Source: Janibacter sp. HTCC2649 (lineage in GTDB: Bacteria > Actinomycetota > Actinomycetes > Actinomycetales > Dermatophilaceae). Taken from it: 64,000 nucleotides of DNA. Below the pieces are notes generated by a model that did not search any database, was not told the origin of the DNA, and worked only from the letters and a program-made list of their open reading frames with translations. A program made the position numbers and the translations under genes. The stretch covers positions 620,001 to 684,000 of the forward strand of contig NZ_CH672413.1 of NCBI RefSeq assembly GCF_000152705.1, in the 5' to 3' direction. Positions 35,710 through 45,827 of the stretch are shown piece by piece; the stretch's first letter is position 1, and every line of letters starts with the position of its first letter.

Positions 35710-36567
35710 ATGCCCCGCTACCCGTCCACCACCCCGACGCTGTTCATCATCGGCGGCGCCGAAGACCGCGTCGGCCGGGCAGCACTGCTGCGTCGGTTCG
35801 TCCGAATCAGCGGTGGTCGACGCGCGCGCCTCGTCGTGATCCCCACCGCCTCGTCCTTCCAGGACGAGGTCGTCGCCTCCTATCGCGAGGTGTTCACCCG
35901 CTTTGGCGTCGAGGACGTCGACGTCGTCAACCCGCAGTCCCGCCAGGAGGCCCACGACCCCCACGCCGTGGCCCTGCTCGACCAGGCCACCGGCATCTTC
36001 ATGAGCGGCGGTTCCCAGCTCCGCCTCTCGCAGTACTTCCCGGGCACGCCGCTCGGTGATGCGCTGCACCGCGCCCACGCTCGCGGTGCCGTCGTCGCGG
36101 GCACGTCGGCCGGTGCCTCGATCATGAGCGAGTTCATGATCTCCATGGGTGACGAAGGCATCACGCCAGTCCAGCGCGCCAGCCAGGTCAGCGCCGGCAT
36201 CGGCCTCGTCAAGGGTGTCATCGTCGACCAGCACTTCGCCCAGCGAGCCCGCTACGGACGCCTGCTGTCCGTCGTCGCCGCCTCGCCCAGCCTGCTCGGC
36301 ATCGGCATCGACGAGGACACCGCCATCGAGGTCACCGACGGCTCGCGCTTCACGGTGCACGGCCGCGGAGGCGTCATCGTCATGAACTGCCGCGACATCA
36401 CCACCGACGCACCGGACGCCCGCCGCGGGGCCCCCCTCCTCGTGTCGGGCGCCGTCATCCACACTCTTCCCGCAGGCGCCACCTTCGACCTGATGTCGGC
36501 CACCCTCGTCGACTTCGTCGAGCAGCACGGCGACGTCGGCGTCACTCTCGCCACAGCGAAGTCCTGA
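35710..36567 (+). CDS. cphB: Cyanophycinase
   Basis: 285 aa. Serine peptidase S51 that cuts cyanophycin (poly-Asp with Arg side chains) to beta-Asp-Arg dipeptides. The nucleophile elbow is AGTSAGAS with Ser133; FIIGGAEDR and MSGGSQLRLSQYF are family motifs, and QHFAQRARYGRLL supplies the substrate arginine pocket region. It has no signal peptide, so it acts in the cytoplasm on stored granules. It lies 52 nt before cphA in the same direction. Confidence 0.95.
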   Translation: MPRYPSTTPTLFIIGGAEDRVGRAALLRRFVRISGGRRARLVVIPTASSFQDEVVASYREVFTRFGVEDVDVVNPQSRQEAHDPHAVALLDQATGIFMSGGSQLRLSQYFPGTPLGDALHRAHARGAVVAGTSAGASIMSEFMISMGDEGITPVQRASQVSAGIGLVKGVIVDQHFAQRARYGRLLSVVAASPSLLGIGIDEDTAIEVTDGSRFTVHGRGGVIVMNCRDITTDAPDARRGAPLLVSGAVIHTLPAGATFDLMSATLVDFVEQHGDVGVTLATAKS

Positions 36568-36619: not shown

Positions 36620-39538
36620 ATGACCGAGGACCGCCCCACCCCCACCGGCCCCGCCGTACCTGAGCTCACGATCGTCGAGTCGCGGATCTATCGCGGCGGC
36701 AACATCTGGTCCTACGATCCGGCGATCCACCTCATCGTGGACCTCGGCATCCTCGAGCAGTACCCCACGGACCTCCTCGAGGGCTTCACTGACCAGCTCC
36801 TCGAGCTGCTGCCCGGGCTCGAGAACCACACCTGCTCCCGTGGCGTCAAGGGCGGGTTCATCCAGCGGCTTCGCGAAGGCACGTGGCTCGGACACGTGAG
36901 TGAGCACGTCGCCCTCCAGCTCCAGCAGGAGGCGGGACACGACCAGCGGCGTGGCAAGACGCGCATGGTCAAGGAGCACCCCGGCCGCTACAACGTCGTC
37001 TACGGCTACACGGACGAAGGCGTGGGACTGGCCGCGGGCAAGCTCGCCGTGCGACTCGTCAACCACCTCGTCCGGGCCGAGGAGGACTTCGACTTCAACA
37101 CCGCCCTCGAGGCGTTCCTGCGCCGCGCCGAGCGCACGGGCTTCGGACCGTCGACGGCCGCGATCCTCGAAGAAGCCGTCAGCCGCGACATCCCCTACAT
37201 CCGTCTCAACAGCGGCAGCCTCGTCCAGCTCGGTCAGGGCGTCCACGCGCAACGCATCCGCGCCACGATGACGTCCAAGACCGGCGCGCTCGCCGTCGAC
37301 ATCGCCGGCGACAAGGACATGACCACCAGGCTGCTGGGCTCCGCCGGGCTCCCCGTGCCGAAGCAGGAGACCGTGCGTGGTCCCGAGGATGCCGTCGCTG
37401 CAGCGCGCCGAATCGGATTCCCGGTCGTGCTCAAGCCGCTGGACGGCAACCACGGACGGGGGGTGTGCCTCGACCTCACGACCGATGACGAGGTGCGCGA
37501 AGCCTTCGTCGTCGCTCGTGGGGAGTCCCGGCGCGGCAACGTCATCGTCGAGTCCCACATCACCGGCAAGGACTACCGCTGCCTCATCGTCGGTGGCCGG
37601 ATGCAGGCCATCGCCGAGCGCGTCCCGGCACACGTCGTCGGCGACGGAGAGCACACCGTCACCGAGCTCGTCGAGATCACCAACGCCGACCCGCGGCGAG
37701 GAGTGGGCCACGAGAAGGTCCTCACCCGCATCAAGGTCGACCAGACCGCGGAGTCGCTCGTTCGCGACCAGGGCTTCGCGATGGGCGACGTCCCGCCCCA
37801 GGGCACCATGGTCAAGCTCGCCCTCACCGGCAACATGTCGACGGGTGGCATCTCGGTCGACCGGACCTTTGACGCACACCCGGACAACGTGGAGATCGCC
37901 GAGGAGGCGGCCCGCATGGTCGGGCTCGACGTCGCCGGCATCGACTTCATCTGTCCCGACATCGCCTCCCCCGTGCGAGAGACCGGCGGCGCGATCTGCG
38001 AGGTCAACGCGGCACCCGGATTCCGGATGCACACCCACCCCACCGTCGGCGAGCCGCAGTTCATCGCAAAGCCCGTCGTCGACCTGCTCTTCGCGCCGGG
38101 CTCGCCATCGCGTGTGCCGATCGTGGCGGTCACCGGGACCAACGGCAAGACGACCACGTCGCGCATGATCGCGCACATCATGAAGGGTGTCGGGCGCAAG
38201 GTCGGCATGACGTCGACCGACGGCATCGTCGTCGACGAGCGGCTCGTCTTCAAGGCCGACGCCTCTGGGCCCAAGTCTGCCCGCATGGTTCTCCAGAACC
38301 CCCGCGTCGACTTCGCGGTGATGGAGGTCGCCCGCGGCGGCATCCTGCGCGAGGGCCTGGGCTACGACCGCAACGACGTCGCCGTGGTCACGAACGTGGC
38401 GCCCGACCACCTCGGACTGCGCGGGATCAACACTGTCGAGCAGCTGGCCGACGTCAAGGCCGTCATCGTGGAAGCGGTGCCCCGCAACGGTTTTGCCGTG
38501 CTGAACGCCGATGACCCGCTGGTGCGCAAGATGCGCAAGCGCTGCTCGGGGTCCATCGTGTGGTTCACGATGTCGCCTCCCGGGTCGGCCGTGCGGGAGT
38601 TCGTCGACGACCACTGCCGTCGCGGTGGCCGAGCGATCGTGCTGGAGCCGTCCGACAAGGGCGACATGATCGTCATCCGGCACGGCCGTCGCGCGATGCA
38701 GCTCGCCTGGACCCACCTTCTGCCGGCCACGTTCGGCGGCACGGCGATGTTCAACGTGGCCAATGCCATGGCCGCCGCCGGCGCGGCGTTCGCAGTCGGC
38801 ACGGGGCTGCACGAGATCCGTCAGGGACTGCGCACCTTCTCGACGAGCTACTACCTCTCCCCCGGCCGCATGAACCAGGTCAACGTCAACAACATCGACG
38901 TCATCGTGGACTACTGCCACAACGCTCCGGGCATGAAGGTGCTCGGCGACTTCGTCGAGCGCTACGCCGACGCGAAGGCCGGGTCGAGCGAACTCGGCAA
39001 GATCTCGCGTCTCGCCGTCATCGCCACCGCGGGTGACCGGCGCGACGAGGACATGCGCGAGCTGGGCTCGATCGCCGCGCACCACTTCGACGTCATGGTC
39101 GTCCGCGAGGACGAGCGACTGCGTGGTCGCAAGCCCGGTGAGACGGCAGGTCTTGTTGCTGAGGGCGCCAAGGCTGCCATGGCCGACGGAGCTCGCTGCC
39201 GCCAGGTCGAGGTCGTCACCGAGGAGCTGTCGGCCGTGCGCCACGTCATGGCTCGCGCCAACCCCGGTGACATCGTCGTCGTCTGTGTCGACCAGCACGG
39301 TGTGGTCATGAACGAGCTCGAGACCATGACCAAGCAGGCCCAGCCGGGAACGCACACGGCCGACTCCCTCGCCGACCCCGACCTCGACCCCACGACCCTG
39401 TCGGCCGAGGCTCAGGTCAGCGGTGAGGAAGCCACCGACCAGGACCTCGCCGAGCACGACGCCGACACCGGTGGCGAGCCCGACTCCGAGACCGACCCCG
39501 ACGCGGACCCGGAGGAGCCCGCTCAGCCCAGCAGCTGA
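36620..39538 (+). CDS. cphA: Cyanophycin synthetase
   Basis: 972 aa. Builds multi-L-arginyl-poly-L-aspartate with ATP. Three parts: an N-domain (1-160, RIYRGGNIWSYDP), an ATP-grasp domain that adds Asp (about 200-480; KPLDGNHGRG, EVNAAPGFRMH), and a Mur-ligase domain that adds Arg (about 495-890; GTNGKTTTSRMI at about 504). A 65-residue acidic tail, rich in Asp and Pro, follows and is not part of the standard enzyme. The start has GAGGAG. Granules would store nitrogen; the neighbouring CAT-type permease could supply arginine. Confidence 0.96.
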   Translation: MTEDRPTPTGPAVPELTIVESRIYRGGNIWSYDPAIHLIVDLGILEQYPTDLLEGFTDQLLELLPGLENHTCSRGVKGGFIQRLREGTWLGHVSEHVALQLQQEAGHDQRRGKTRMVKEHPGRYNVVYGYTDEGVGLAAGKLAVRLVNHLVRAEEDFDFNTALEAFLRRAERTGFGPSTAAILEEAVSRDIPYIRLNSGSLVQLGQGVHAQRIRATMTSKTGALAVDIAGDKDMTTRLLGSAGLPVPKQETVRGPEDAVAAARRIGFPVVLKPLDGNHGRGVCLDLTTDDEVREAFVVARGESRRGNVIVESHITGKDYRCLIVGGRMQAIAERVPAHVVGDGEHTVTELVEITNADPRRGVGHEKVLTRIKVDQTAESLVRDQGFAMGDVPPQGTMVKLALTGNMSTGGISVDRTFDAHPDNVEIAEEAARMVGLDVAGIDFICPDIASPVRETGGAICEVNAAPGFRMHTHPTVGEPQFIAKPVVDLLFAPGSPSRVPIVAVTGTNGKTTTSRMIAHIMKGVGRKVGMTSTDGIVVDERLVFKADASGPKSARMVLQNPRVDFAVMEVARGGILREGLGYDRNDVAVVTNVAPDHLGLRGINTVEQLADVKAVIVEAVPRNGFAVLNADDPLVRKMRKRCSGSIVWFTMSPPGSAVREFVDDHCRRGGRAIVLEPSDKGDMIVIRHGRRAMQLAWTHLLPATFGGTAMFNVANAMAAAGAAFAVGTGLHEIRQGLRTFSTSYYLSPGRMNQVNVNNIDVIVDYCHNAPGMKVLGDFVERYADAKAGSSELGKISRLAVIATAGDRRDEDMRELGSIAAHHFDVMVVREDERLRGRKPGETAGLVAEGAKAAMADGARCRQVEVVTEELSAVRHVMARANPGDIVVVCVDQHGVVMNELETMTKQAQPGTHTADSLADPDLDPTTLSAEAQVSGEEATDQDLAEHDADTGGEPDSETDPDADPEEPAQPSS

Positions 39539-39542
39539 GCCC

Positions 39543-40433
39543 TCAGGGGACGACGATCACCGGCACGGGTGAGTGCCGGACGATCTTCGTGGCGCTCGAG
39601 CCCAGGAAGAGCCGTTCGAGACGGCCTTCCCGGGACGAGCCGACCACGAGCACGTCGTCACGCTCCCAGCCGACCGCGTCGAGAGCGGCTGTCCAGGACC
39701 GTCCGGCGCCGACGACCGTCGTGAGGGCCTCGGGCGCAGTTCCGGTCGCTTTGAGGCCCTCGACGGCGTCGACCTGCGCCCGTCCCGCCTGTTCGAGCCA
39801 CGCATGGAGGACCGCGTCCTCTGCGGCCACACCCACCTCCGGCGGATACATCGTGCGGCCCCGCACGGCGAAGGTGGCCACCCGCAGCTCGGCGCCGACC
39901 TCGGTGCAGATGATGGCCGTCCGCTCCAGGGTGGAGAGTGAGGACTCGTCACCACGGAAGGCACACGTCACCCGCCTGACTCGAGCCGCCTCCGACTGGT
40001 GGTAGCCCCGCGTCGCCAGGGCCACCGGCACCCGTGAGGAGTGGAGCAGGCGGCTCGCGATTGAGCCGACGTTGACCTGCCCGTGCCCGGCATCGGATCG
40101 GGACCCGATGACGATCATGTCGGCGCCTGCCTCCGCGACGGCGTCGAGCAGACCGGTCGCCACCGACCGGGAGGACGTCCATCGCGTCGTCGTCTCGAGG
40201 TCGGGGCAGATCTCGGCGACGAGTTTCTCGGCCTCGCGAACGGCGGCGTCACCCTGCTCCGAGGACCACCGGGCAAAGTCGCGGTCCGCAGCACCCGCGA
40301 TCGGCGTCGGCCATGACGCCGGGACGACCGAGAGGATTTCCAGCGGCACGCCCGACGAGCGCGCGAGCGTCGCCGCGAGCTCCAGCCCCGACAGGTCGTC
40401 GGCTCCCCCGCGGAAGCCCACGAGCAACGTCAC
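39543..40433 (-). CDS. Universal stress protein, tandem Usp domains
   Basis: 296 aa with two Usp folds. The second keeps the ATP-binding pattern GSSREGRLERLFLGSS (about 268-283); the first has GSRSDAGHGQVNVGS, a slightly altered version. It overlaps the amino-acid permease stop/start by 4 bp and is its downstream partner, so it may modulate the transporter, as shown for some Usp-transporter pairs. Convergent with cphA, ending 4 bp away. Confidence 0.9.
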   Translation of the reverse strand: MTLLVGFRGGADDLSGLELAATLARSSGVPLEILSVVPASWPTPIAGAADRDFARWSSEQGDAAVREAEKLVAEICPDLETTTRWTSSRSVATGLLDAVAEAGADMIVIGSRSDAGHGQVNVGSIASRLLHSSRVPVALATRGYHQSEAARVRRVTCAFRGDESSLSTLERTAIICTEVGAELRVATFAVRGRTMYPPEVGVAAEDAVLHAWLEQAGRAQVDAVEGLKATGTAPEALTTVVGAGRSWTAALDAVGWERDDVLVVGSSREGRLERLFLGSSATKIVRHSPVPVIVVP

Positions 40434-41890
40434 GACTCCTCCACGTCAAGCGAACCGAGCCGGGAGTGCTTGCGTCCCCAGAAGAAGTAGAACGCCAGCA
40501 CGATGGCCAGCCAGACCGCGAAGACGATCCAGGTGATGGCGGCCAGCCCGGAGAGCACGTAGACGCACGCAACGATCGTGATGATCGGCGTCACCGGGTA
40601 CCCCGGGATCTTGAAGGGCCGGTGCAGATCCGGGCGGGTACGCCGCAGGACGATGACACCGAGCGCCACCACGGAGAACGCCATGAGCGTGCCGATCGAC
40701 ACCGTGTCCCAGAGGTAGTCCGAGGGGACGAAGCCAGCGATGAGGGCCACGACCGTGCCGACGACCACCGTGTTGAAGACTGGCGTCAGGGTCTTGGGGC
40801 TCACCTCGGCAAACTTGTCGGGGAGCATTCGGTCCCGACCCATCGCGAAGAGGATGCGGGTCTGCCCATAGAGCGTCACCAGTGTCACGGAGAAGATCGA
40901 GATCACCGCTCCGGCGGCAAGGATCGTCCCGGCCACGGCGTTCCCGGTGATGTTCTCGAGGATCACGGCGAGTCCAGCACTCTGCTGCTCGTCACTGGAG
41001 AACTCTTCGAGGGGCTGTGCACCGATACCTGCCAGCGCAACCAGTACATAGACCGAGATGACGATGACCAACGCGGCCATGAGGGCACGCGGCAGAGCCT
41101 TCTGGGGATCCTTCACCTCCTCGCCCGCTGTCGACACGGCATCAAGTCCGATGAAGGAGAAGAAGATCGTGCCCGCGGCCGCGCTGATTCCCGCCGAGCC
41201 TGACGCCCAGAAGTTGTCGAAGCGGTCGACCTGGAAGGCCGTGAGGCCGATGACGACGAACAGCACGAGGACCGCGAGCTTGATGAGCACCATGATCGTG
41301 TTGATCCGCGCGGACTCACTCGCTCCGCGCATGAGGAGCAGTGTACACATCACGACGAGGATGACGGCCGGCAGGTTGAGGATGCCGGTGGTGTTCTCCT
41401 CAAACGGAATCGGGCTGTAGGACAGGGCGTCAGGGAACTGCACACCAACGGTTTGCTCGAGGAACTCGTTGAGATAGCCGCTCCACCCGACCGCGACCGC
41501 CGAGGCCGCGACGCCGTACTCGAGGAGGACACATGCGGCGATGACCATCGCGACCAGTTCGCCAAGCGCGTGGTACGCATACGAGTAGGTCGATCCGCTG
41601 ACCGGGATCGCACTCGCCATCTCCGCGTAGCAGAGCGCCGAGAGACCAGCAGCCACACCCGCGATGATGAACGAGATGATGACCGCGGGCCCCGCGTCCG
41701 GCACGGCCTCCTGGAGCACGAAGAAGATGCCCGTGCCCACCGTGGCGCCGACACCGAACATCGTCAGCGCAAAGGTGCCGATCGTGCGCTCCAGCTCCGG
41801 GCCGGCGTGGTGGTGCTCCGGATGGTTCGGATCCGTCGCGAGGGCGATCGGCTTCTTGCGGGTGAGCTGCTGCGACAACGAGATGGCCAT
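40430..41890 (-). CDS. APC-family amino-acid permease (cationic amino-acid transporter type)
   Basis: 486 aa, about 12 helices. The N-terminal consensus GVGATVGTGIFFVLQE and the segment ALCYAEMASAIPVSGSTYSYAYHALGE are those of the CAT (APC) group, whose members take up arginine and lysine. ATG 41890 has a GGGGAG site. The specificity is inferred; the nearby cyanophycin genes make arginine a sensible guess. Upstream is a Mur-ligase fusion gene in the same direction; downstream, a Usp gene overlapping by 4 bp. Confidence 0.9.
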   Translation of the reverse strand: MAISLSQQLTRKKPIALATDPNHPEHHHAGPELERTIGTFALTMFGVGATVGTGIFFVLQEAVPDAGPAVIISFIIAGVAAGLSALCYAEMASAIPVSGSTYSYAYHALGELVAMVIAACVLLEYGVAASAVAVGWSGYLNEFLEQTVGVQFPDALSYSPIPFEENTTGILNLPAVILVVMCTLLLMRGASESARINTIMVLIKLAVLVLFVVIGLTAFQVDRFDNFWASGSAGISAAAGTIFFSFIGLDAVSTAGEEVKDPQKALPRALMAALVIVISVYVLVALAGIGAQPLEEFSSDEQQSAGLAVILENITGNAVAGTILAAGAVISIFSVTLVTLYGQTRILFAMGRDRMLPDKFAEVSPKTLTPVFNTVVVGTVVALIAGFVPSDYLWDTVSIGTLMAFSVVALGVIVLRRTRPDLHRPFKIPGYPVTPIITIVACVYVLSGLAAITWIVFAVWLAIVLAFYFFWGRKHSRLGSLDVEES

Positions 41891-41935
41891 GGGGCACTCC
41901 CCTGCTCGGCGGGACACGCGAATTCCGTGCTCGCG

Positions 41936-41982: not shown

Positions 41983-44196
41983 TCAGTCGCTGGACTGCGC
42001 CGGACGAGCCAGTTCTTCGGCGTATGCCGTGAGCGAACGTCGGTAGCGCAGGACGTCCTCGTCCATGCTCCCGTGCGCCACGGCTGCCAACAGGCTGCCG
42101 AGGGCCTCGTCGGATCGTCCCGCGGAGTGCAGCGCGAGGGCCCGGAAGCCGGCGATGCCGATGGACTCGGGGCGGTCAACGGCCAGGTCGTCGAGGAGCG
42201 CGACAGCCTCGTCGTGCCCACCCACGTTGCGCAGCGATGACGCCATCTGGATGACTGCCCGGTGCCGAAACGGCTCTCGCAGACCTCCGCTCAGCGCTTC
42301 GCGGTAGAGCTCGATGGCCCGGTCCGGCTGTCCTGCGGAGTCGAAGGTCCCGCCGTACTCGTAGGCGATACGAGCGTCGTCGGGATACGCGGCATACAGC
42401 GCCGTGCCGGTGGCGATGCGGCGTTCGGCGTCCTCGTCCTCCCAGAGGGCCGTGATGGCCTCCTCGGCCTCGTGCTCACCGCGGGCCAGGATGACCTTGC
42501 GCCGGATGCTTGCCGTCGTGTCGGCGACGGCACCGATCTCGGCGAGCCAGTCGTAGATCGCCTGGCGTTCCGAGTGGCACATGATCGCGACCACGTCGCC
42601 GTCGTGGGCCACTTCGACCAGGGCCCTCAGACCGGTCAGCTCGGTTTCGTACGAGTCGATGTCGGCAACCCCGGCGCGCTGGAGGCCGATGCGCAGGTGC
42701 GCCTCGAGGTCCTCCATGCTGCGGCCGCGCAGGTAGTGCGCCTTGTGTGCCGCGACGATGTGGTCGGCGCGGTGACCGGCGATCTCGCCGAGGTTCTCCA
42801 GGATCTCGTCTGTGCGGTCGCCGCCGGCACCGAGTCCGAGGTGAATGCGCGAACCGGGCTGGCGCAGGCCCTCGGCGACGTCCATGAGAGCCTCGAGCCC
42901 GGCCTCGTTGTGGGCGAGGTCGACGACCACGGTGCACGTGCCGCCGAGCCCGCCGGGAGCCGAGTAGGTGTTCATGCGACCGGGGTTCAACGCGGCATCG
43001 GGCCGGAAGGTGCGCAGCCCCTCGATGACCGCGGCACGATCGATTCCGAGCGCCAGCGCCGCTGCCGTGGCCGCCAGGACGTTGGTGACGTTGTGGCGCG
43101 ACAGACCACTGATCGTCATGGGGACGTCGACGACGGACACCAGCCGGTCCGGGACGCCGGAGTCGGTCAGCACGGTGACGCGGTCGTCGAGCACCGTGAT
43201 GGCGCGACCACCGGCTCCGAGTGCCTCACGGATGGCCGGGGAGTTTGCGTCGAGCGAGAAGACCCAGGGCTTGGCGGGCGACCCGGTGCGCATCGCCCAG
43301 ACACGGGGGTCGTCGCCGTTGAGCACGGTCCATCCGTCGGGGCGGGTCGCCCGCGTGATGATGGCCTTGACCTCGGCGAGCTGGTCGACGGTGTCGACGC
43401 CTTGGAGGCCGAGATGGTCTGCCGTCACGTTCGTCACGACCGACACGTCGTTGTGAGAGACGCCCAGCCCCTTGAGGAGCATGCCGCCGCGGGCCGTCTC
43501 GAGGATGCCGATCTCGACACCGGGCGCGCCGAGGACGCCACGTGCACCAGCAGGGCCGGAGAAGTCGCCGGGCTCGATCATCGTCCCGTGGTCGACGACA
43601 CCGTCGGTCGAGCTCCAGGCAGTGTGCTTCCCGGACGTCATCGCGATGTGGGCGAGCAGGCGGGTGGTCGAGGTCTTGCCGTTGGTCCCGGTGATGGAGG
43701 CCACGGGGATGCGGGGCGTGACGATGCGGGCAGGTGGGCCATCGGGCGCCTCGCGCACCAGGACAGCCTGCTCATCGACGACGTCGCGCCCCTCGAGCCA
43801 CGCCGCGAGAACCGGCGCGACCGACTCGCCCAGGGCCTGGGCCGGTCCGCGTCGGCGCCACACGAACGACACGACGACGACCGAACGGTCCCCACCCGAG
43901 CGGGACTTCACGCCGAGCCGGCCCGTCCCGGAACCCACCGACACGCGACGCACGGCCCGCTCGGCCAGTCGGGCGATGACCCGCTGGCGTTGCTCGGTGC
44001 CGGGCGACCCGGCCTGGATGGCGCCGAGGCCAGCCGTGCGGGCGACGCGACGGACCGTGTCCTTGTCGGCCTCGAGGTATGCCGTGAGGTCGAGCGTGAC
44101 TTTGACGGCTGGCTTCGGGAAGTAGAGGTTGGGTCCCTCGAGGACCCTGACCTCGGTGGCGGTCACGGCAGGGCTGGTGTGAAGGTCGCTGGTCAC
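41983..44196 (-). CDS. Mur-ligase domain protein fused to TPR repeats, cyanophycin-synthetase-like
   Basis: 737 aa. N-domain (1-160) begins EVRVLEGPNLYFPKPAVKVTL, comparable in position to the cyanophycin synthetase N-domain. A Mur-ligase ATPase follows: GTNGKTSTTRLLAHI (about 169), ETARGGMLLKGLG, TNVTADHLGLQG, LNGDDPRVW, ending near 560. There is no ATP-grasp domain. Residues about 573-735 form tetratricopeptide-type helices (RIAYEYGGTFDSAGQPDRAIELYREAL and following). Related Mur-ligase proteins beside cphA exist, but the TPR tail is unusual. A primer- or dipeptide-ligase for cyanophycin metabolism is my inference. GTG 44196, leaderless. Confidence 0.85.
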   Translation of the reverse strand: MTSDLHTSPAVTATEVRVLEGPNLYFPKPAVKVTLDLTAYLEADKDTVRRVARTAGLGAIQAGSPGTEQRQRVIARLAERAVRRVSVGSGTGRLGVKSRSGGDRSVVVVSFVWRRRGPAQALGESVAPVLAAWLEGRDVVDEQAVLVREAPDGPPARIVTPRIPVASITGTNGKTSTTRLLAHIAMTSGKHTAWSSTDGVVDHGTMIEPGDFSGPAGARGVLGAPGVEIGILETARGGMLLKGLGVSHNDVSVVTNVTADHLGLQGVDTVDQLAEVKAIITRATRPDGWTVLNGDDPRVWAMRTGSPAKPWVFSLDANSPAIREALGAGGRAITVLDDRVTVLTDSGVPDRLVSVVDVPMTISGLSRHNVTNVLAATAAALALGIDRAAVIEGLRTFRPDAALNPGRMNTYSAPGGLGGTCTVVVDLAHNEAGLEALMDVAEGLRQPGSRIHLGLGAGGDRTDEILENLGEIAGHRADHIVAAHKAHYLRGRSMEDLEAHLRIGLQRAGVADIDSYETELTGLRALVEVAHDGDVVAIMCHSERQAIYDWLAEIGAVADTTASIRRKVILARGEHEAEEAITALWEDEDAERRIATGTALYAAYPDDARIAYEYGGTFDSAGQPDRAIELYREALSGGLREPFRHRAVIQMASSLRNVGGHDEAVALLDDLAVDRPESIGIAGFRALALHSAGRSDEALGSLLAAVAHGSMDEDVLRYRRSLTAYAEELARPAQSSD

Positions 44197-44224: not shown

Positions 44225-44983
44225 TCAGAAGCCCATCGCGTGCACGCCACCGTCGACGTGGACGATCTCGCCCGTCGTCGCCGGGAACCAGTCGGACAGC
44301 AGCGCCGCACAGGCCTTGGCTGCAGGAACGGCGTCGTTGACGTCCCAGCCCAACGGCGCGCGCTGGCCCCAGGACTCCTCGAAGGTCTGGAAGCCCGGGA
44401 TGGACTTCGCGGCCGTCGTGCGGATGGGGCCGGCAGCGACGAGGTTGCACCGCACGCCCTTGGGCCCGAGATCGCGCGCGAGGTAGCGGTTGGTCGACTC
44501 GAACGCGGCCTTCGCCACGCCCATCCAGTCGTAGACGGGCCAGGCGAACTTCGCGTCGAAGGTGAGGCCGACGACGGACGAGCCGGGCGTCATCAAGGGC
44601 AACGCAGCGACAGCCAGGGACTTGAGTGAGTAGGCCGAGGCGTGCATCGCGACCGAGACGTCCTCGAAGGTCCCCTCGAGGAAGTTGAAGGCGCCCTGGG
44701 GTGCGAACCCGATCGAGTGCAGGACTCCGTCGAGGTGGTCGACGTGCTCGCCGAGGCGCTCCGCCAACGTGTCGAGGTGTTCGGCGTCGGTGACGTCGAG
44801 CTCGACGACGGGCGGCGTCGTCGGCAGGCGCTTGGCGATGGTCGTCGTGATCTTCATCGTCCGCCCGAAGGAGGTGAGCACGACCTCGGCGCCCTGCTCC
44901 TGTGCCAGCTTGGCGACGTGGAAGGCGATCGAGGAGTCCATGAGGACCCCCGTGATGAGCAGCTTCTTGCCCTCGAGCAGCAT
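44225..44983 (-). CDS. fabI: Enoyl-ACP reductase (NADH), FabI/InhA type
   Basis: 252 aa. Last reductive step of fatty-acid elongation. SDR fold with atypical glycine loop TGVLMDSSIAFHVAK, the InhA-like VLHSIGFAPQ (88-97), and catalytic Tyr151 and Lys158 (VYDWMGVAKAA). Complete length. Downstream of fabG by 55 nt, same strand, the order of mycobacterial mabA-inhA. Confidence 0.96.
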   Translation of the reverse strand: MLLEGKKLLITGVLMDSSIAFHVAKLAQEQGAEVVLTSFGRTMKITTTIAKRLPTTPPVVELDVTDAEHLDTLAERLGEHVDHLDGVLHSIGFAPQGAFNFLEGTFEDVSVAMHASAYSLKSLAVAALPLMTPGSSVVGLTFDAKFAWPVYDWMGVAKAAFESTNRYLARDLGPKGVRCNLVAAGPIRTTAAKSIPGFQTFEESWGQRAPLGWDVNDAVPAAKACAALLSDWFPATTGEIVHVDGGVHAMGF

Positions 44984-45038: not shown

Positions 45039-45752
45039 TCAGTGGCCCATGCCGAGGCCGCCATCGACGGGAATGACCGCGCCGGTGATGTAGCCCGCGT
45101 CGTCGGACGCGAGGAAGCGGACGACGGCGGCCACCTCTGCGGGCTGGGCAAAACGACCAGCAGGTATGCCGGCCTTGTAGGACTTCTGCGTGTCGTCCGG
45201 CAGCGCTGCGGTCATGTCGGTCTCGATGAACCCGGGCGCCACGACGTTGGCCGTGATGCCACGGCCGCCGAGCTCGCGGGTCACCGATCGCGCGAGGCCC
45301 ACCAGTCCCGCCTTGCTGGCGGCGTAGTTGGCCTGTCCCGGCCCTCCGTAGAGCCCGACGACGCTGGAGATGAGGATGATCCGGCCACCACGGGCCTTGA
45401 TCATCCCGGTGCTCGCGCGCCGGACGCAGCGGAACGTCCCGGCAAGGTTGGTGTCGATGACCGCGTCGAAGTCCTCGTCACTCATGCGCATGAGGAGGCC
45501 GTCCTTGGTGATGCCGGCGTTGGCCACGAGCACCTGGACGGGTCCTCCGAAGATCTCCTCCGCCGCACTGAAGGCCGCGTTGACCGACTCGGTGTCGGTG
45601 ACGTCACACGTCACGGCGGTCAGACCGTCCGGGGCGTCGCCGCTGCGGCTGGTCACGACGACGGTGTCGCCGGCCTCGACGAAGGCGGTGGCGATGGCCT
45701 GACCGATACCCTTGTTGCCACCGGTGACAAGGACGTTGCGTGCTGCGCTCAT
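45039..45752 (-). CDS. fabG: 3-oxoacyl-ACP reductase FabG (MabA-like)
   Basis: 237 aa. NADPH-dependent SDR: TGGNKGIGQAIA cofactor loop (10-21), NAG at 78-80, and catalytic Ser130, Tyr143 and Lys147 (ANYAASKAG). Reduces 3-oxoacyl-ACP; partner of the adjacent fabI. ATG 45752 has TAGCGT 8 nt upstream and no clear ribosome binding site. Confidence 0.96.
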   Translation of the reverse strand: MSAARNVLVTGGNKGIGQAIATAFVEAGDTVVVTSRSGDAPDGLTAVTCDVTDTESVNAAFSAAEEIFGGPVQVLVANAGITKDGLLMRMSDEDFDAVIDTNLAGTFRCVRRASTGMIKARGGRIILISSVVGLYGGPGQANYAASKAGLVGLARSVTRELGGRGITANVVAPGFIETDMTAALPDDTQKSYKAGIPAGRFAQPAEVAAVVRFLASDDAGYITGAVIPVDGGLGMGH

Positions 45753-45766
45753 GGCGCACGACGCTA
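45753..45766 (-). promoter_or_regulatory. -10 box of fabG-fabI
   Basis: TAGCGT (45766 down to 45761), 8 nt before ATG 45752. Confidence 0.4.
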
Positions 45767-45827
45767 GTGGACTACCGCCCGGTAGCTCGCATCCTCGGGG
45801 CCGTGCCTCGTCCTCAGGATGCGGACG

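Follow-up and report, generated by a model that had tools for sequence, protein, structure and literature searches.

The gene at 41983-44196 of the Janibacter sp. HTCC2649 window (the whole analysed stretch of 64,000 nucleotides) encodes a stand-alone Mur ligase of the cyanophycin synthetase (CphA) type, in which the predicted N domain and the Mur-ligase (M) domain are kept without the ATP-grasp (G) domain. N-M ligases of this kind constitute a wider family, of which the fusion to a tetratricopeptide (TPR) tail found in Dermatophilaceae is one local form. As judged from its residues, the chances appear even that the protein works in cyanophycin metabolism as an active, ATP-dependent amide ligase and attaches an amino acid other than arginine.

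Organization of the locus

The ligase gene is read from the minus strand and begins with GTG (ORF check), with the fabI stop lying 28 bases ahead of its start. The features of the region are as follows.

35710..36567, plus strand: cphB, cyanophycinase, 285 aa (TIGR02069, 239.5 bits)
36620..39538, plus strand: cphA, complete CphA1, 972 aa, with N (intact Cx19HxxEH), G and M domains (TIGR02068, 1143.7 bits)
39543..40433, minus strand: universal-stress-like protein, part of the same insertion as the permease (family read from sequence)
40430..41917, minus strand: APC-like amino-acid permease between the two ligases (family read from sequence)
41983..44196, including stop, minus strand: Mur ligase of the N-M (CphA) type, stand-alone, 737 aa, with a TPR tail at its C-terminus
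41986..42528, minus strand: its linker and TPR tail, residues 557-737 (TPR_5 at 610-729, Pfam)
42529..43716, minus strand: its M domain, residues 161-556 (K174, E233, D260, H261, K277, GDR 459-461, YLRGR 488-492)
43717..44166, minus strand: its CphA-type N domain, residues 11-160 (profile comparison and predicted structure)
44225..44983, minus strand: fabI-like gene directly upstream of the ligase, a conserved neighbour in Dermatophilaceae only
45039..45767, minus strand: fabG-like gene upstream of fabI

The convergent order (ligase → ← cphA ← cphB) recurs in Dermatophilaceae, in other Actinomycetota and in Chloroflexi, while Shinella and Ruegeria have all three genes in one direction, as cphB-cphA-ligase. 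Among the loci compared, the insertion of the permease and the universal-stress-like gene between ligase and cphA (39543-41917) was seen only in the window and in two Knoellia loci (L031, L032).

Domain layout and integrity of the fusion

Pfam placed Mur_ligase_M at residues 168-380 (E 1.5e-18), Mur_ligase_C at 406-539 (E 6e-11) and TPR_5 (PF12688) at 610-729 (E 8.5e-31; 107.1 bits against a gathering score of 24.2), and the motifs GTNGKT (170-175), DHLGLQG (260-266) and NGDDP (293-297) were located in the M domain. The best NCBIfam model was TIGR02068, cyanophycin synthetase, but this match is partial (residues 161-545 on model positions 477-853 only) and stays below the cut-off (344.8 bits vs 850). 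The cut-offs of murE (TIGR01085, 87.9 bits vs 257.3) and of MurT of the lipid II-amidating GatD/MurT system (22.2 bits vs 800) were also missed. In the PDB, the nearest sequences were those of CphA1 structures, with alignments confined to the M domain. Pfam, the quoted motifs and the TIGR02068 match thus bear out the CphA-type Mur-ligase core that had been claimed by the sequence-only reading. A loose CphA tail or a chance Mur similarity was ruled out by the NCBIfam match, the superposition on CphA1 and the tree described below.

No ATP-grasp family was matched in the ligase by a Pfam scan that gave RimK and other ATP-grasp matches in the adjoining CphA. Neither the G domain of CphA1 nor the ATP-grasp active site of CphA2 was found by Pfam, and the structure alignment to CphA1 skips G, in agreement with the sequence-only reading, where an ATP-grasp domain had been reported missing. 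The G domain of CphA1 adds Asp to the backbone; lacking it, the N-M ligase would therefore not extend the backbone.

The fused reading frame is intact in the genomes of relatives and in about 50 Dermatophilaceae contigs or genomes. A frameshift or annotation artefact, which had been named beforehand as a possible refutation, is therefore excluded, and the fusion is genuine. The dN/dS values against congeners (0.11-0.24 for N, 0.06-0.19 for M and 0.12-0.22 for the TPR tail) indicate that all three parts are under purifying selection.

The search for the same domain order across genomes, which had been proposed as a check, confirmed the fusion in Dermatophilaceae, but it also showed that the protein is not defined by its TPR tail, as elsewhere N-M proteins without TPR stand beside cphA. 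Beyond Dermatophilaceae the ligase ends at about residue 575, and in Dermacoccus most of the tail has been lost, leaving a degenerate remnant. TPR_5 occurs in Dermatophilaceae almost solely in this fusion; the nearest stand-alone relatives of the tail that were seen are small TPR proteins of Streptomyces. One of these (168 aa, L203) is 42% identical over the tail, but it stands alone, whereas the tail of the window protein is fused to the ligase. Since the orthologues outside Dermatophilaceae end without TPR, the basic unit is the N-M ligase, and the tail is a later addition in Dermatophilaceae.

The N domain and the predicted structure

A model predicted from an alignment of 32 orthologues reached a mean pLDDT of 90.2 and a pTM of 0.83. 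Its top match, by Foldseek and VIA-align, was CphA1 (TeCphA1, Z 51.5, 519 residues, rmsd 3.1 Å). The fit to the N and M domains of TeCphA1 and SuCphA1 gave Z values of 47-51.5 over about 520 residues, while those with MurC-F were only 28-33. The superposition, which has to be read with the caveat that AlphaFold may have learned CphA, spans CphA1 from its first to its last residue, with N and M fitting as one body and G being skipped. Comparison with profiles of CphA N domains gave P 3.6e-6; the match is remote, and Pfam PF18921, which represents the N domain, did not reach E 0.1 in the ligase. Because N and M superpose together on CphA1, and with the profile comparison in agreement, the first 160 residues are assigned to a predicted CphA N domain, so the CphA-like N-terminal extension of the sequence-only reading was also upheld.

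The motif Cx19HxxEH is the zinc-peptidase motif by which CphA1 makes its primers (PMC9262961). This zinc site is intact in the N domain of the CphA of the window and absent from that of the ligase, where RxxER is aligned with the HxxEH of CphA. In Actinomycetota and Chloroflexota the N domain (43717-44166 in the window) has a mean charge of +8 to +10, strongly basic compared with about 0 in CphA, and it is the opposite in Alphaproteobacteria (about -13). An N domain that is basic and has lost the primer-cutting zinc site, together with a cyanophycinase in the same locus, would suit a ligase that joins or caps the ends of cyanophycin or β-Asp-Arg dipeptides as a primer maker, chain terminator or dipeptide recycler, and CphA2 provides an example of a CphA relative turned to dipeptide repolymerisation (PMC10206079). 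However, CphA2 is described as using a single active site and is related through its ATP-grasp part (8fxh match, residues 154-592), which is absent here, and a primer maker would be superfluous beside a CphA whose intact Cx19HxxEH is tied to primer independence. This end- or dipeptide-directed role is therefore rather unlikely.

The active site and the incoming amino acid

K174, E233, D260, H261 and K277 are invariant in the alignment of 32/32 homologues. In CphA1, K499 (the P-loop Lys), E558 (Mg-binding) and the catalytic D585-H586 are needed or bind Mg-ATP (PMC9427784, PMC9262961), and K174, E233 and D260-H261 of the N-M ligase match these residues, so that the window protein, like CphA1, possesses an M domain with the catalytic residues. 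Alignment and model together show a complete putative Mur-ligase site for ATP and the acyl-phosphate, and catalysis is probably intact because the catalytic residues are invariant and match CphA1. On these grounds the protein would, in all likelihood, be an active ATP-dependent amide ligase. A pseudo-enzyme with a regulatory or structural role, linking CphA tetramers or granules by its N, M and TPR parts, could likewise be pictured from the N-M architecture common with CphA, the TPR tail and the genetic coupling to cphA, but it would hardly account for the invariance of the ATP, Mg and carbamyl-lysine residues in all 32 homologues or for the low dN/dS in M, and we consider it improbable.

The residues that would receive the incoming amino acid differ between the two groups. 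The position +24 from GDR is D in 63 and E in 1 of 64 distinct CphA segments, while in the N-M ligase family it is K in 46, L in 19 and A in 11, with an acid in 5/87. Directly after GDR, 63/64 CphA segments have R, which no family member has at that place. DxxxRGR and GDRR of CphA are replaced by YLRGR and GDR[TSAP], and the C-terminal ‘VD’ of CphA is absent from the family. The DNPR/DNPA motif of MurE is also missing from the window ligase, which has HKAHYLRGR there, while the MurE of the same genome has DDNPR. In S. aureus MurE, Asp-406 (of DNPA) and Glu-460 bind the side-chain amine of lysine, and their mutation lowers the affinity for lysine (PMC3829189). By sequence alignment, on which the matching of MurE to CphA clamp residues rests, Asp-406 corresponds to the +24 position. 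The clamp position is not uniform: a Ktedonobacteria member of the family retains an acid there (KRDPWFLRGR), and some Pseudomonadota CphA proteins vary as well. Since the acid that clamps the cation is lost and basic residues lie around the site, the balance tips slightly towards an incoming amino acid that is neither Arg nor Lys.

The main competitor is a second arginine (or lysine) ligase, that is, a duplicated M half of CphA which speeds or repairs side-chain loading in trans on chains with bare Asp. The retained catalytic residues and RGR motif, the CphA-like N domain and arrangement of N and M and the constant presence of a full CphA alongside in Actinomycetota are all consistent with this proposal. 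The cation-holding positions, however, are changed consistently across three phyla and kept in CphA, which would be unexpected if Arg had stayed the substrate, and we regard such an Arg/Lys ligase as unlikely, if a degree less so than an enzyme acting on chain ends or dipeptides. Among the activities offered by the sequence-only reading, the ligation of another amino acid fits the residue changes best, while re-ligating Asp-Arg and extending primers fit them less well.

Glutamate in cyanophycin is on record (PMC8560796, PMC8050183). In two Chloroflexi and one actinobacterium, an M20 glutamate-carboxypeptidase-like gene lies, in divergent orientation, beside or near the N-M ligase (L085:6769-7944, L165:6537-7703 and L173:5130-6335, all minus strand; assigned by PRK06133, just under the cut-off), and its product may hydrolyse the product of the ligase. 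The recorded glutamate and the nearby M20 gene are hints pointing to Glu and not proof of it.

Distribution and descent of the family

The N-M ligase clade spans Actinomycetota, Chloroflexota and Alphaproteobacteria and usually adjoins cphA; the family was sampled outside Cyanobacteria and Bacillota. A tree built from 48 M domains groups the Actinomycetota and Chloroflexota ligases into a single clade (96/94), which the Shinella and Ruegeria proteins join (91/99) and which stands apart from the CphA of the same organisms. The window protein falls within this clade, carries the YLRGR and GDR[TSAPD] motifs and has cphA in its genome. Because these ligases do not group with the CphA of their own hosts, the tree points to an ancient CphA paralogue rather than to local CphA genes that lost G again and again.

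Several proteins of similar appearance were set apart. CphA derivatives of Deinococcus and Legionella have a similar layout but branch with CphA1 and represent separate reductions. The Legionella adelaidensis plasmid protein (L181:5383-7251) is a 622-aa N-M protein with intact Cx19HxxEH and without G, which branches with CphA1 and adjoins cyanophycinase and isoaspartyl peptidase genes, with no cphA within the stretch. On the Deinococcus plasmids (L178:5068-7242, L180:4723-6804), CphA-like proteins whose ATP-grasp region is shortened or degraded are encoded either next to a full cphA or away from it. The tandem CphA pairs of other Pseudomonadota were also rejected as family members, both genes of those sampled lying in open frames of at least 857 residues (frames, not domain-scanned); in three such genomes (G958, G997, G1031) two CphA-like genes lie nearby in long frames, the second being more divergent (E 1e-57 to 1e-60 in two). 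Two Ktedonobacteria-like Chloroflexota (L169:8448-10064, L176:9076-10692) carry a 538-aa family member (WFLRGR, GDRTD) away from cphA, adjoining proC-like and proS-like genes.

Among 58 relatives of the window genome, 30 carry the N-M ligase, all with a CphA M-domain match, and 28 carry neither (E 1e-20). In 396 Actinomycetota genomes drawn evenly, with CphA scored by TIGR02068, both genes were present in 23, the ligase only in 1, CphA only in none and neither in 372 (Fisher p 2e-36, uncorrected for phylogeny). The same 24 genomes, spread over six families, carry the ligase and a TIGR02068 match; the single ligase-only genome is a 67%-complete MAG in which this match is the ligase itself. The co-occurrence within Actinomycetota is partly shared descent. 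With cphA adjoining, it nevertheless supports the suspected link to cyanophycin, and the N-M ligase very probably works in cyanophycin metabolism.

These data also bear on a role in peptidoglycan precursor synthesis or in another non-cyanophycin pathway, for instance a lipid-linked one suggested by the adjoining fabG-fabI pair. The Mur-ligase fold and the position directly downstream of fabG-fabI in Dermatophilaceae would agree with it, but fabG-fabI adjoin in Dermatophilaceae only, while cphA adjoins in Chloroflexi (L085, L165) and Alphaproteobacteria as well, and the link to fatty-acid synthesis was set aside as local synteny only. Furthermore, sampled Actinomycetota without cphA are also without the ligase gene, further Mur-ligase-domain genes including a MurE are present elsewhere in the genome, and the UDP-MurNAc-binding first domain is absent. 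A peptidoglycan-only activity, the other refutation foreseen by the sequence-only reading, is made unlikely by a gene that 372/396 Actinomycetota do without and that tracks cphA, and non-cyanophycin pathways as a whole are very improbable.

In Pseudomonadota genomes with CphA, a frame of ~590-620 residues was found beside CphA in 4/29, and both of the frames read bear the family motifs. Since the partner ligase is missing in about 25/29 of these genomes and in some Chloroflexota with CphA, the N-M ligase is dispensable for making cyanophycin and is not required everywhere.

Discussion

Returning to the preferred reading, an amide ligase for an amino acid other than arginine, the enzyme would phosphorylate a carboxylate, probably a side-chain or terminal one, of Asp in cyanophycin, un-argininylated poly-Asp or a short primer, and we put it at roughly one chance in two that the acceptor is an Asp carboxylate of this kind. 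The activated carboxylate would then be joined to an amino acid at its amino group, with neutral or acidic ones such as Glu or Asp as first candidates. The N domain, now without the zinc site of an endo-cyanophycinase, probably serves just to hold the chain. In Dermatophilaceae the TPR tail is probably a later-added device for docking to other proteins, unneeded for catalysis; it may dock to granules or to CphA, as the sequence-only reading suggested. In its full form, the proposal is that a dedicated second ligase in three phyla adds a non-cationic amino acid (e.g., Glu or Asp) to aspartate carboxylates, giving modified cyanophycin or capped chains, with TPR tethering the enzyme in Dermatophilaceae; we offer this only tentatively.

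Cyanophycin is described as being built by CphA1 or CphA2 and degraded by cyanophycinase and isoaspartyl dipeptidases, and a genome survey clustered only those genes (PMC10206079). If every sampled CphA-bearing actinobacterium carries a second Mur-type ligase, an overlooked component of this metabolism would be at hand, one that could alter what the polymer is composed of, how long it is or how well it dissolves. The organisms concerned include wastewater polyphosphate accumulators, for which storage of cyanophycin has been proposed (PMC9123174, PMC12978653), and the enzyme, if the proposal is true, would be a ready-made part for side-chain-modified polyaspartates. No paper was found that unites cyanophycin, Mur ligase and tetratricopeptide or describes the family, in a search that left subscription journals mostly outside, so an earlier description is possible; public annotation names the plasmid homologues ‘Mur ligase family protein’.

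Compared with MurE and the other peptidoglycan Mur ligases, the N-M ligase has the same middle and C-terminal Mur domains, P-loop and GDR motif, but it lacks their UDP-MurNAc-binding domain and the DNPR/DNPA motif and is linked to cphA rather than to cell-wall genes. The plasmid protein beside cphA in Shinella and Ruegeria is an N-M protein of the same clade with YLRGR and GDRSD motifs, which differs in the lack of TPR, in its divergent N domain and in sharing operon and strand with cphB-cphA. With CphA1 (TIGR02068; PDB 7LG5, 7LGQ, 7WAE) the N-M ligase of the window has in common the arrangement of N and M and the ATP, Mg and catalytic residues of M, whereas CphA1 has the G domain, the zinc site and DxxxRGR/GDRR, and the N-M ligase is without G, has lost the zinc site and carries YLRGR/GDR[TSAP] and, in the lineage of the window, TPR. 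CphA2, the cyanobacterial dipeptide-repolymerising enzyme (PDB 8FXH), is likewise a specialised, reduced relative of CphA, but it keeps the ATP-grasp part, while the N-M ligase keeps only N and M, a mirror reduction; the family is thus apparently an undescribed CphA paralogue that has been reduced in the opposite way to CphA2.
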